Source: Salinibacter altiplanensis
GTDB lineage: Bacteria; Bacteroidota; Rhodothermia; Rhodothermales; Salinibacteraceae
Direction: 5' to 3'
NCBI RefSeq assembly: GCF_002894645.1
Contig: NZ_NCQY01000030.1
Location: forward strand, 140,750-204,749
DNA length: 64,000 nt
Shown: positions 28,089-34,751 of the stretch, in pieces
How positions within the stretch are numbered: the first letter of the stretch is position 1
Layout of the letters: the number at the start of each line of letters is the position of its first letter
Position numbers and translations under genes: made by a program
The notes under the pieces: model-generated
Told to the model about the DNA's origin: nothing
The model's database searches: none
The model's input: the letters and a program-made list of their open reading frames with translations, nothing else

Positions 28089-29621
28089 TTATGCCACGCT
28101 GTCAAGCACAACACGTGCGGCGTTTCGCCCCGATGCGCCCATGATTCCCCCGCCAGGGTGCGTACTTGCCCCCGTTAGAAACAGGTCGTCCACGGGGCCC
28201 TGGTAGTTTGACGATCCAAACAGGGGGCGTGCCGAGAACATCTGGTCGATGCTCATCTCCAGGTGCATCACATTCCCCCGGTACAGCCCCAAGTGATCCT
28301 CAAGCCATTCCGGATGCTGAAACAACTGGCCCACAATGGACTCGCGCGTTCCCGGGGCGTAGCGCTCAAACTGTGTGAGCAATGTGTCGGCCACGCCCTC
28401 GGCAATGTCCGGCCACGTATCCCCACTGGCTAGTTCGTAGGGGAAATATTGTCCCCAGAGCCAGAGCACTTCTCCTCCCGGCGGGGCCAGCGTGTCATCC
28501 GCGGCGGAGAACGTCATGGCGATCAGGGGCGGATCCTGTGCCGGCCGACCGGCCAAGTGATCCCCGTATGCCGCTCGCAGTTGCGTCATGTCCCGACACA
28601 GCAACTGCAGTCCCGTCCGTGCCTTTTGATTGTTGGAGGCTGCCGAATAGGAGACGGGCTCATCAAGCGCCAGACGCATCATGGCCCCAAATCCGTTTCC
28701 AATCCGGAGCCCATCGGCCTCGTCGGGACGGTGTTGGGCGGGGAGGAGGTGGTCGAAGGTCTCTTTCGCGTGGGTGGCCGAACACACAGTCCGACTGGTA
28801 TAGGAGGTCCCATTGACCCGGATGCCCTCGGCTCGTTCATGGTTGACGAGAATTTTCTCGACGGGTGCGTCGGTGTAGATGTCGCCTCCGTGGGCTTCGA
28901 TGTGGCGTCGAAGCGCCTGGGTAAGCTCTCCAGAGCCGCCCTGGGGGCGTGCCACCCCGCCCTCGTGGTACAACGGGTGCCAAAGCGCGAAGGGACCCGT
29001 CAAGGGATCCGTTGGCGGGGGGCCCGACTGGGCCGCCATCCAGGCAATGGCCGTTCGCAGCTTCTCTTCTTCGAAGTATGAGCCGAGCACCTCCTGGTAC
29101 GGACGGAGAATGTGCCGAAGTTCTTCCTGCCAGGGAAGCGGAGAGCTTGCCCCACGTATCAGGTGCTTGCCCAGCTCCAGGGGACTGGGGGAGGTCAAAA
29201 ATATGTCCCGCATGGTGCGGGCAAATCCAATCCAGTCCGTTACAAACTTGCGGTAGGCCTCTCCCTCACCGGGAAAGAGCCGCTCCAGATGATCGACGGT
29301 GCGGTCTAGGTCTCGGTAAAAGTAGATCACGTCGCCGTCCGGGAAGGGGGCGACGAACATGGGGTCGAGCTCAATGTAGGTCAGACCGTATTGCTCAAGC
29401 TCGAGCTCATCGACAATGGGAGTCTGGCGGATAAGGATGTGGGCGCTGCCTCCCAGGTCGATCTGGTACCCGGGGAACAGTTCTTTGGTGGACACTGCCC
29501 CTCCAACCATCCCGCGTTCCTCAAAGACAGCGACCCGATAACCAGCCTGTGCCACGTACGCACTTGCAATCAATCCGTTGTGCCCTGCTCCGATCGTAAC
29601 CAGGTCGTAGTCGGTGGACAT
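28089..29621 (-). CDS. crtO: CrtO-type carotenoid ketolase (FAD-dependent)
   Basis: A 510-residue flavoprotein of the phytoene desaturase superfamily. It starts with the dinucleotide-binding '[39 protein letters not shown]' and ends with '[22 protein letters not shown]', the C-terminal FAD signature. The protein is of CrtO length, and the cluster context (lycopene cyclase and a ketocarotenoid-binding rhodopsin) supports 4-ketolation of the beta-ring. Desaturase-like relatives cannot be fully excluded by eye. It is first in a likely operon with crtYcd; the 197 bases upstream separate it from a divergent small membrane-protein gene. Confidence 0.82.
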
Positions 29622-31985: not shown

Positions 31986-32083
31986 CGGCTGCCTCGGCCG
32001 TGTGCCCGATCCTGAGACTCACTCCTGAAAAGCACTCCGTTCTGAAACCCGAGGAGCATAGCTTACCAGCTGCATAGACTAAC

Positions 32084-32099
32084 GATAAAATGTTTTATC
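32084..32099. promoter_or_regulatory. Inverted repeat upstream of the first recombinase
   Basis: GATAAAA-TG-TTTTATC, perfect 7-bp arms around 2 bases, ends 10 bases before the start codon of the recombinase at 32110. The site is AT-rich against a GC-rich background. It could be an autoregulatory operator or part of a recombination site. Confidence 0.45.
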
Positions 32100-32109
32100 A
32101 CGAATACTG

Positions 32110-33024
32110 ATGGACCCGGATCTCGTAGACTCATTTTTGAACGGCCTGTCGTCTCACCAGACGCGCCGGGCGTATCGGACGGACCTGCGCAAATTCTTCC
32201 CGGAGAAGCAAAGGGTGGCTACAGAGCTTGTTCAATCCGTCGAGGTTGACGACATCCGTGCCTTCATTCACACAATGCGTGCTCTCGGTCACGCTGAAGG
32301 AACGCAACGGCGACGACTCGCTGCACTCCGCTCGTTTTTCGATTGGGCAATTGCAGAAAACATCCATGACCGCAACCCGGCCCGGCATCCTGAAGTCCAG
32401 CCCATGCCGTCTACGAAAGGAACCTCGTCCACGCGCGCACTCACAAAATTAGAGGTGCGAGACCTGCTGGAGGCTGCCGGAGCGTCGAATCGGGCGGGGC
32501 TCCGGAATCAGGCGCTCATCCTGACAATTGTGTACGCGGCGCTGCGACGAAGCGAGATTGCAGGCCTCATGGTCGAGGATCTCCGGCCGCTCGGCCGCTA
32601 CTGGATCCTCGACCTTGGCGACACCAACACGGAGAGTGCGTACGTTCGGATCCCGGACCAGGTCGCCCGTGTGATCGAAAGTGTACAAGATCAATACGAA
32701 ATCTCCTCCGGACCGCTCTGGCGATCAGTAAGCCATCGGACCCACGGCGAGCCGTTGTCCCCGGATGCGATATACGCAATTGTCCGCAGTGCTGGAAAAG
32801 CCGCCGGTGTGGGGGCCATTGCGATTGACACACTGCGGCGCACTGGGCTACGCCTTGCGTCGGATGGCGGCGCGGACCTTCCACAAATTCAAGCCCATGG
32901 CCGATTCGGGGATCCAGCGTCGGCGGCCCGTATTCACAACGCAGATGGTGTAGACGGAACGCTTCAAAACAGTGCGGCGGTGCACATCCGCATCGACGCA
33001 TCGGAGGTGTTGGTAGGTGCCTGA
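32110..33024 (+). CDS. Tyrosine recombinase-like protein lacking the nucleophile
   Basis: A 304-residue protein with the two-domain layout of XerC/D: an N-terminal SAM-like core-binding domain (about 5-90) and a catalytic domain. The first active-site Arg is kept (Arg-146 or Arg-147 in 'YAALRRSEIAGLMVEDL'). The usual HxLRHT reads Asp-Thr-Leu-Arg-Arg-Thr (240-245), keeping only Arg-243. The LGH box reads 'HGRFGDP', and the nucleophilic Tyr position aligns with His-276 ('AARIHNADG'). It should not cleave DNA by the normal chemistry. A catalytically intact relative follows 310 bases downstream on the same strand. It may be a DNA-binding partner or a decaying enzyme, though the frame is uninterrupted. 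Confidence 0.8.
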   Translation: MDPDLVDSFLNGLSSHQTRRAYRTDLRKFFPEKQRVATELVQSVEVDDIRAFIHTMRALGHAEGTQRRRLAALRSFFDWAIAENIHDRNPARHPEVQPMPSTKGTSSTRALTKLEVRDLLEAAGASNRAGLRNQALILTIVYAALRRSEIAGLMVEDLRPLGRYWILDLGDTNTESAYVRIPDQVARVIESVQDQYEISSGPLWRSVSHRTHGEPLSPDAIYAIVRSAGKAAGVGAIAIDTLRRTGLRLASDGGADLPQIQAHGRFGDPASAARIHNADGVDGTLQNSAAVHIRIDASEVLVGA

Positions 33025-33334
33025 CCGGCCCAGTCGGCCTCTGGCCTGCCATTTAGAACAACGGGATCTAATATGCGTTATGTTGCGTTTTTTAGGATCG
33101 TCGATTTAGTTGCCTCAAGGGCTCCAAAGCAGTTGCCGGCAAGCCTCGAGAAGGGCTCCGCATGTGCGTGGTGTGCAAAAGCAGCCTAGCCGCTCTATGT
33201 TATCCAGTGCCTTTCGCTCTTTTCGGGATCTCCGGCAATTACAGAAAAAATACCCCGCAAAGGCTCCACACTCTGGCCGAAAGGTCGGTCCAGTGTTGTT
33301 CGTCGCTCACGTCTCACAAACTGTTGCTCGGTCC
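33025..33334. other. Spacer between the two recombinase genes
   Basis: 310 bases, AT-rich near 33050-33105 (CTAATATGCGTTATGTTGCG). The frame of the second recombinase stays open back to a TTG at 33110, but the extra 75 residues would be strongly basic, unlike this proteome. I treat it as non-coding. No clear direct repeats or attachment-site pair were seen. Confidence 0.45.
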
Positions 33335-34417
33335 ATGCCTAGTTCGGAACCGCGGTCAGAACCTCAACTTACGCAAGGCTCGGGCCGGGAGCGTTCCGTG
33401 CCGGGTGTCTCGCAGAGGGACGACAAACGCCTTCCATACAATGCCCCCTCCGATGAACAATGTTCGGTTGAGTCCGACGAGGTGCTCGTCCAGCGCTGGC
33501 TCGCCGAGAAAAGCGCTCGGACGCAGGAGGAGTACGCCCGCGACCTCGAACAATTCGTCGAGTTCGTAGACCTTCCGCTCCGGTACGTCACGCTCGGTCA
33601 CCTACAAGAATACCGTGAGTACCTAAAAGACGGGTACGCACGGTCTTCGCAGAAGCGAAAATTGTCGGCGATCAAGAGTCTTTTCACATTCGGGACGAAG
33701 CTTCGTTACTTTGCCCACAACGTCGGGGCGGCCCTCTCCACCCCGTCCGTCCGCAACGATCGCGCCGAGCGGATTCTCTCGGAGGCGGACCTATGGGCCC
33801 TCCTGCGCGACGAGCGCGACCTGCGCAACCACGTCCTGCTCCGTCTCTTCTATGCGTCCGGGGGTCGCATCTCGGACGTGGAAGATCTTCGGTGGCGCGA
33901 CTTGAAAGACCGGCCGGACCTGAACGGGCCGGACGAGCGGCCCGGGGGCCAGGTCACATTCTTCGGGAAAGGCGGCAAGACCCGCGCCGTTACCTTGTAC
34001 AGCAAGGTGTGGAGCCTGATTGTCCGCCTGCGAGAAAACGAACAGTCTGAAGGCTACGGAGCCACAGACGACCCCGTCTTCCGATCACAAAAAGGCGGAT
34101 GCCTCTCGCGATCCCAGATCTGGCGGATTGTGAAAAAGGCGGCCGTGCGGGCCGGCGTCAAGCTTACTGAAAAAACTGCGTCGGACGGGTCTGCCAAACG
34201 AGACGAGAATGGAGGCCCGATCATGACGTCCAAGGTGTCGCCCCACTGGTTCCGACACGCCCATGCATCGCATGCACTACAGAAAGGAGCGGACCTGGAG
34301 CTCGTCCGCGAAACCCTGGGGCACGAGAGCATCGAGACGACCAAGACGTACCTTCATGCCCAACCGGGGAAATCGTCTTCGTACTACGTCGATGAGGCAC
34401 CGGACTTTAACGGATAG
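33335..34417 (+). CDS. Tyrosine recombinase (XerC/XerD-like integrase), intact active site
   Basis: A 360-residue site-specific recombinase. The catalytic residues are complete: Arg-178 ('YASGGRISDVEDLRW'), a beta-hairpin Lys in 'TFFGKGGKTRAVTL', His-304 and Arg-307 in 'PHWFRHAHASHALQKGADL', His in 'ETLGHESIETT' and the nucleophile Tyr-339 in 'TKTYLHAQPG'. The N-terminal ~75 residues before the core-binding domain ('DEVLVQRWLAEKSARTQEEYARDLEQFVEF') are polar and low in complexity. ATG 33335 is preferred over an upstream TTG. It pairs with the degenerate recombinase upstream. It could be the chromosomal dimer-resolution enzyme or a mobile-element integrase; no element boundaries are visible. 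Confidence 0.88.
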   Translation: MPSSEPRSEPQLTQGSGRERSVPGVSQRDDKRLPYNAPSDEQCSVESDEVLVQRWLAEKSARTQEEYARDLEQFVEFVDLPLRYVTLGHLQEYREYLKDGYARSSQKRKLSAIKSLFTFGTKLRYFAHNVGAALSTPSVRNDRAERILSEADLWALLRDERDLRNHVLLRLFYASGGRISDVEDLRWRDLKDRPDLNGPDERPGGQVTFFGKGGKTRAVTLYSKVWSLIVRLRENEQSEGYGATDDPVFRSQKGGCLSRSQIWRIVKKAAVRAGVKLTEKTASDGSAKRDENGGPIMTSKVSPHWFRHAHASHALQKGADLELVRETLGHESIETTKTYLHAQPGKSSSYYVDEAPDFNG

Positions 34418-34751
34418 GGACACTTTTTGCCGTTGCACAAGGGGGGCTTGATCGATGAGGATTGCTCATTGACCCACCTCTTCCAACAACGTGCCAACCA
34501 TACATCACCTCAGACGGCTGTTCGCATCCTGACCCCCACACTCAGCTCGACACGTGAATCGTGAGACCAGCAGGTTCTTTGAGGCCCGTGACGAACCTCA
34601 TGAATTATGATGGAAGGCATGATTTTTATCAACGACTTTTGGAAAAACTGAGTCCGTCCCCTAAACGTTCGGGATCAGTAGTGGTAGGGAAAACATCTTT
34701 CTGAAGAAGAAGACCCAAGTCGAATCGCATTCTGATACGCAACCACGGCGC
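34418..34751. other. Intergenic region after the recombinases
   Basis: 334 bases. The middle (34590-34660) is AT-richer than average. No hairpin, repeat or ORF of credible composition was found. It separates the recombinases from the ThiD-like gene and presumably contains that gene's promoter. Confidence 0.45.

Follow-up and report, generated by a model that had tools for sequence, protein, structure and literature searches.

Apparent succession of two recombinase and site modules at the terminus locus of Salinibacter and related genera

The locus and its two recombinase-fold genes

The window is a stretch of 64,000 nucleotides from Salinibacter altiplanensis (genome G000), in which two genes for recombinase-fold proteins, here called U (upstream) and D (downstream), stand in tandem. 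The names dif, Xer and those of the recombinase boxes are used in their usual sense. The features of the locus are the following:

28089..29621, minus strand: FAD-dependent oxidoreductase-like gene, a conserved neighbour found at 16 of the 19 U loci that were compared
32078..32105, no strand assigned: difU, dif-type site of the U module, 28 bp, ACTAACGATAA AATGTT TTATCACGAAT
32110..33024, plus strand: U, Xer-fold pseudo-recombinase, 304 aa, single open frame
33061..33088, plus strand: difD, dif-type site of the D module, 28 bp, ACGGGATCTAA TATGCG TTATGTTGCGT
33335..34417, plus strand: D, catalytically complete Xer-type tyrosine recombinase, 360 aa
34752..37878, plus strand: thiD-like gene, LacI-type regulator and purC, on the other flank of the locus

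U has the Pfam N-terminal SAM-like and Phage_integrase domains. An earlier, sequence-only reading had noted that it keeps Arg146/Arg147 and Arg243, and we find these residues invariant among 26 aligned relatives. Also as described there, the HxLRHT box is DTLRRT and the LGH-type box HGRF, with Asp240 at the first His position and Phe266 at that of the LGH-His. The turn with the catalytic Lys is gone, DTNTE standing where relatives have TKGG. His276 had been put in the place of the nucleophilic Tyr. The loss of the Tyr stands, because residues 264-304 contain none, but by the family alignment its column is occupied by Ile275 and His276 lies one residue beyond. With no Tyr after residue 263 and none at the family column, a nucleophile elsewhere in U is ruled out. 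Lacking the complete R-K-H-R-H/W-Y active site, the U of the window has to be classed as a pseudo-recombinase and not as a functional Xer.

The AlphaFold2 model of U has a mean pLDDT of 86 and a pTM of 0.63, and its confidence is lowest in blocks 271-290 (pLDDT 49), where the Tyr would be expected. Foldseek matches this model best to XerA-type structures (4a8e, 5hxy), followed by the Tn1549 and lambda integrases, Cre and XerH. Neither U nor D reaches the NCBIfam equivalog cut-offs for XerC, XerD, XerA or XerS. Against the XerD model U scores 86.4 bits and D 153.9 bits, compared with a curated cut-off of 329.6, and a complete U reaches 111.0 bits against the XerC model (cut-off 335.15).

D had been credited with the full catalytic set, and R, K, H-R-H, LGH and Y are all present. 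Its frame had been taken from 33110, a far upstream TTG, but in comparison with relatives the conserved part of D starts far inside that frame, and the start is probably the ATG at 33335. The inverted repeat reported at the head of the pair, GATAAAA-TG-TTTTATC, is real, but it is the core of difU, which ends 4 bp ahead of the U start codon; the second site, difD, had gone unlisted.

U is inactivated in a single clade

We searched for U in 60 relatives and found some match at E<=0.001 in 57, many of the weak matches being other Xer proteins. Active-site residues were tabulated for 30 loci and G016; G028 and G042, read later, are both complete. Outside one clade, all 18 U homologues that were read carry the full Lys, His, Arg, His, Tyr set. 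Inside it, all 13 copies (G000, G001, G003-G010, G012, G016 and G018) have lost the Lys, the first His and the LGH-His and retain both Arg, and the Tyr column still holds Tyr in four (G007, G008, G009 and G018). A further contig collection gave 29 U loci, of which 27 (L175-L201) were read as one dead and 26 complete copies, several of them repeating genomes already counted; the other two are a fragment (L202) and a remote match (L203). Among 12 same-genus relatives, only weak U matches were found in G002 (62% complete) and G011 (83% complete). Some Rhodothermales genomes have neither U nor D clearly present, which counts against the interpretation that we prefer in the Discussion.

The frame of U had been judged maintained rather than decayed. 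This is borne out by the 12 full-length dead copies, all of which have intact frames; the dead U of G005 lies in two halves at two contig ends.

The surroundings of U are conserved as well. The thiD-LacI-purC run is found in most loci of the family and in part of the order, and a 426-aa gene lies upstream of U in every family locus that extends that far. This conserved neighbourhood indicates that U is a long-term resident, a gene both ancient and syntenic in the order Rhodothermales. Many relatives carry a block in the interval from D to the thiD-like gene (34418-34751 in the window) that is missing here and in G008; by eye its genes resemble a methyltransferase and PTPS-like, alcohol-dehydrogenase-like and RibA/B-like genes.

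In a tree, dead U, complete U and D are each confined to one side of a branch, and the U and D clades each hold sequences from several families of the order. The tree rejects a local tandem duplication of U and D. The earlier description of U as a paralogue of its neighbour thus does not hold in the sense of a local duplication: the genes fall in separate clades, each goes with a site of its own kind, and U has occupied the locus for longer.

A second recombinase adjoins every dead U

The sequence-only reading had proposed a search for the same pair in related genomes, and U and D are found together in 10 more. In G005 the pair is split over two contig ends, and in G016 D is convergent to U, which could be an old inversion. 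D adjoins dead U in 11 of the 13 genomes. In the other two, G001 and G012, its place is taken by a 373-aa tyrosine recombinase of a different type with a seemingly complete active site (by eye), so that a second recombinase stands next to U in 13/13. The flanks of 8 + 26 complete-U loci, some of them short and some from repeated genomes, contained no second recombinase when scanned with nine recombinase queries.

Two further observations concern these loci. In G012 and G001 (L054/L055) an 11-7-11 palindrome resembling the U-type site stands ahead of the substitute recombinase; by eye it reads GTGTCCGATAA CATTTCA TTATCGGACAC in G001. In G010 (L053), where the D allele is divergent and the C-terminus of U altered, an ORF lying between the two genes resembles an HNH homing endonuclease by eye.

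Selection on U and exchange of D alleles

A dN/dS estimate on the upstream gene, also proposed earlier, gives an omega of 0.15-0.33 for dead U (Nei-Gojobori, nine pairs, many with dS >1). In four pairs with codon-bootstrap 95% intervals the values are 0.325 (0.21-0.48), 0.325 (0.18-0.51), 0.148 (0.10-0.21) and 0.158 (0.10-0.22), so the whole-gene interval excludes 1 in each pair tested and dead U is under purifying selection. By thirds, the interval for the N-terminal third in G001-G012 extends up to 1.09, which counts against our preferred interpretation. Omega is 0.02-0.11 in complete U (five pairs), 0.04-0.09 in D and 0-0.17 in the neighbours, except for a cyclase-like gene (0.08-0.32) that is as high as dead U. 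The intact frames and omega values disfavour a recent random decay of U, and neither random degradation in relatives nor a Tyr elsewhere, the two outcomes named earlier as contrary evidence, was found. Dead U may still be decaying slowly, since its omega is higher than that of complete U, and this too weighs against the interpretation that we prefer.

D has a different history from its surroundings. Between G003 and G010 its dS is 1.50, compared with 0.11-0.17 for seven neighbours and 0.24 for U, whereas between G000 and G003 it is 0.60 and the neighbours have 1.03-1.88. A dS so far out of line with the neighbours indicates that D alleles move between species. Such exchange is mobile-element-like behaviour and a point against our preferred interpretation.

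The U site marks the replication terminus

Across much of the order an 11-6-11 palindrome, RNNNNYGATAA N6 TTATCRNNNNY, is found upstream of U. Our strict pattern matches in 11 of 12 genomes searched, once in nine (including G000) and twice in G009 and G042, while the reversed-pattern control gave no match in the same 12. The exception, G057, still has the core upstream of U. The match lies less than 6 kb from U in G000, G003, G009, G014, G033, G037, G042, G049 and G058. In G010 the locus itself has only degenerate copies and the sole strict match is some 43 kb away, which counts against our preferred interpretation.

The core (at most one mismatch, starts approximate) lies within 300 bp upstream of U in 11/13 dead-U and 12/16 complete-U genomes, with the complete-U genomes G020 and G048 excluded; the shuffled expectation is <=0.015 per sequence. 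More distant sites accompany the complete U of G037 and G033 (about 0.7 kb), G042 (about 5 kb) and G028 (75 kb, still at the skew flip). Two core copies are found upstream of dead U in 5/13 genomes versus 0/16 for complete U. That the site has been retained, and in places doubled, next to a dead enzyme suggests, as a sequence pattern, an operator-like use. A point against our preferred interpretation is that no U site is recognisable within 300 bp of dead U in G008 and G018.

GC skew changes from plus to minus across the U site, between 1.82 and 1.90 Mb in G003 (site at 1.874 Mb) and at 1.64-1.70 Mb in G028 (site at 1.679 Mb). G033 and G010 also flip from plus to minus, although the G010 samples cannot separate the locus from the distant match. 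G049 and G058 follow the same trend with more noise, samples near the site and one far G058 sample being about zero or of opposite sign. In the window the mean of G minus C per kb is +20.9 before 32 kb and -24.6 after, cumulative skew is maximal at 29,491, and an equally strong change point arose in 6 of 2000 permutations. The ancestral-type complete U thus has both an adjacent dif-type site and about one copy of it per chromosome at the skew switch. The FtsK gamma domain is present in 6/6 genomes tested. According to Kono et al. (2011, PMC3025954), dif is predicted in 19/19 Bacteroidetes chromosomes, and the U-type site itself may already be among those predictions.

The sequence-only reading had proposed looking for inversions or integration junctions near the locus. 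As the inverted repeat is part of a dif-type site at the replication terminus, the likely context is instead chromosome dimer resolution. An inversion or integration hotspot was considered and rejected, no pair of sites flanking cargo being present in the loci that we read.

Two dif-type palindromes were seen away from the chromosomal locus. In G042 a copy of the chromosomal U-type dif lies on a 125-kb second contig (L132, C2:114635), as if a plasmid had borrowed the resolution system of its host. In G009 a 24.6 kb contig (C9, L131) carries ACGCATGATAA CTCTAA TTATCATGCAC, about 2.6 kb from an ORF resembling another tyrosine recombinase.

D has its own site and its own terminus location

The site between U and D is a perfect 11/11 palindrome in G006, G007, G008 and G009 and imperfect in the others, and in relatives its right arm is TTATGTTGCGT or similar. 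In the window only 7/11 positions of the arms are complementary, with the same arms in G005, which does not favour our interpretation. A D-site pattern, so strict that it misses sites found by direct reading in several genus members, matches in 7/17 genomes at one place each (once in G000), always directly upstream of D or a D relative. Its control pattern gave one match, in G007, a further contrary point.

D-type sites are also found upstream of D-family genes in genomes with only weak U matches (G059, G054, G030 and G043), while the D-family genes of G050 and G040 have no recognisable upstream D-type site. In the D-only genomes G030, G054 and G043, which belong to two other families, GC skew flips across D; flanks were sampled on both sides, on contigs rather than whole chromosomes. 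G029, sampled on one side, and G040, whose contig is too short, are uninformative. The D module thus combines a complete active site with an adjacent 28-bp site and a terminus location independent of U. The LacI-purC pair, which belongs to the usual neighbourhood of U in other genomes, lies near the D-family gene in G040 (L143).

Because the skew switches at both U and D sites, the order seems to possess two alternative single-recombinase terminus modules, and this clade has both, with U dead. The modules are not strictly exclusive, as G026 carries a complete U as well as a D relative with its own site on another contig.

Plasmid tyrosine recombinases of cyanobacteria, Methylorubrum and others share 31-44% identity with D in the 45 plasmid records that match it at E<=1e-40. 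Some have a similar palindrome just upstream, for example ACGCAAGACAA GAATCG TTATCTTGCGT in Methylorubrum pCMU02. We do not adopt a plasmid origin of D: plasmid relatives are frequent, but the upstream palindrome is weak evidence, being visible by eye in about five of the 16 D-relative records read (15 plasmids, 1 phage) and exceeding nearly all shuffles in two.

Other recombinase-fold proteins

Another Xer-like protein, X1, was noticed in the genome of the window (G000 C12:30617-31561; L127:537-1565, L148) and in G003 (L125:605-1552), and is found once each in 54/60 relatives at E<=1e-40. In the 32 copies examined, box I (mostly GLSEIEI) and box II (HSLTHT) both lack Arg while the Lys and Tyr are kept, which argues against X1 as a normal second Xer subunit. 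In CTnDOT-type integrases another Arg substitutes for Arg I according to PMC8138268, so the absence of Arg I alone does not prove that X1 is dead. Furthermore, the first ~290 residues of PDB chain 9i5v_14 (401 aa, named RaiA) match the U-family profile and X1, and this similarity suggests an Xer-like domain fused to a ribosome hibernation factor.

Discussion

In this study we describe a dead and a complete recombinase side by side at what appears to be the terminus (dif) locus of the chromosome. We consider it probable that D took over dimer resolution and that U persists as a DNA-binding pseudo-recombinase on the old dif. The succession of modules at this locus is well supported; the present role of U is predicted from its sequence. 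In the ancestral Rhodothermales an active U, encoded at or near its own 28-bp dif, would have resolved dimers by strand exchange. In the ancestor of the clade formed by Salinibacter/Salinivenus and two related genera, D and its own 28-bp site would have come to lie beside U and D most likely assumed dimer resolution. With catalysis no longer required of it, U would then have given up the Lys, its catalytic His residues and, in the majority of members, the Tyr. The fold and the two phosphate-binding Arg would have stayed, and copies of the old site can usually be recognised at the start of the gene. U most likely remains a site-specific DNA-binding protein, an autorepressor and/or a terminus organiser comparable to MrpR. 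Recombination at either site in vivo, resolution by D, continued binding of the old site by U and an effect of that binding are what this interpretation would predict.

The nearest tested precedent for such a role, by analogy, would be MrpR, the SPbeta prophage repressor (PMC10516654), which is reported to have a tyrosine recombinase fold, lost catalytic residues and DNA-binding repressor function. MrpR is a phage protein that, according to the same source, keeps the Lys and Tyr and lacks Arg I and both His positions, whereas U is chromosomal, lies at a dif-type site and has kept both Arg and lost Lys, His and, in the window, Tyr. The MrpR-like anatomy of U, with a site just before the start that is doubled in five of the 13 dead-U genomes, is consistent with the analogy.

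Alternatively, dead U might be a relic under relaxed constraint since the takeover by D, without a present role and heading for eventual loss. Its omega is above that of complete U and of most neighbours, residues were lost stepwise with the Tyr column kept in four copies, two relatives have no clear site, and the structural model is least confident where the Tyr is expected. However, the bootstrap upper limits are no higher than 0.51 in four pairs of which all members were already dead, all full-length dead copies have intact frames, and the upstream sites are still there in 11 of 13 genomes. On balance we think this rather unlikely.

Another explanation, along the lines of the sequence-only reading, is that dead U joins D in a mixed synaptic complex, to which it contributes architecture but no cleavage. 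XerC and XerD cooperate at dif (PMC5357621), and the constant presence of a second recombinase beside dead U would suit such a partnership. U and D nevertheless belong to distinct clades and lie by different sites, and dead U of G001 and G012 is accompanied by another type of recombinase. Where U is absent, D relatives have a similar site layout, so D is probably independent of U. A mixed complex therefore appears unlikely to us.

We give still less weight to the idea that catalysis and site binding are split between an active module (U or D) and dead Xer proteins, with U restraining or licensing D. The dead Xer proteins of the clade would then be U on the old dif and the widespread X1 without both catalytic Arg, and one dif-type site would have turned into an operator or checkpoint element for the other. 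Least probable is that D belongs to a mobile, terminus-targeting integration cassette with the palindromes as attachment sites and another protein resolving dimers: horizontal allele exchange (D of G003-G010), relatives on plasmids and phages and the HNH-like ORF of G010 would fit, but in three genomes from two other families the skew changes sign at D and its site, and the loci read contain the gene and one site only, with no cargo block tied to D.

The succession of modules that we favour can be compared with known single-recombinase systems. XerS/difSL of streptococci and lactococci and XerH/difH of Campylobacter and Helicobacter each consist of one tyrosine recombinase and a dif-type site (PMC5357621, PMC9765430). 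The Xer fold, the terminus location and the recombinase encoded by a dif-type site are common to them and to U and D. The difSL site is given there as 31 bp with an 11-bp centre, whereas the U and D sites are 11-6-11 and several are perfect palindromes, and here two modules occur together with one recombinase dead. XerL/dif of Legionellales is likewise a single-recombinase system recognised through its terminus site (PMC9765430). XerL of L. pneumophila lies more than 400 kb from its dif, and the cited part of that work describes no dead partner. Among the matches listed in our literature search, based on titles and the openings of abstracts, none concerned a dead Xer beside dif or dif in Rhodothermales.

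Chromosome dimer resolution is nearly universal and is commonly regarded as invariable. In this order, two interchangeable recombinase/site modules seem to serve the terminus, and a single clade has kept the two together, the old enzyme being dead yet under selection. The dead-U set also provides a natural series of active-site loss, in which the Tyr outlasts the Lys and His in 4/13 copies. How a chromosome-maintenance system is replaced, and what becomes of the enzyme that has been displaced, would be directly testable here in a culturable genus that is not known to be pathogenic. With XerS, XerH and XerL as the systems described in the cited work (PMC5357621, PMC9765430), the locus would add two order-specific modules and one retained dead one.
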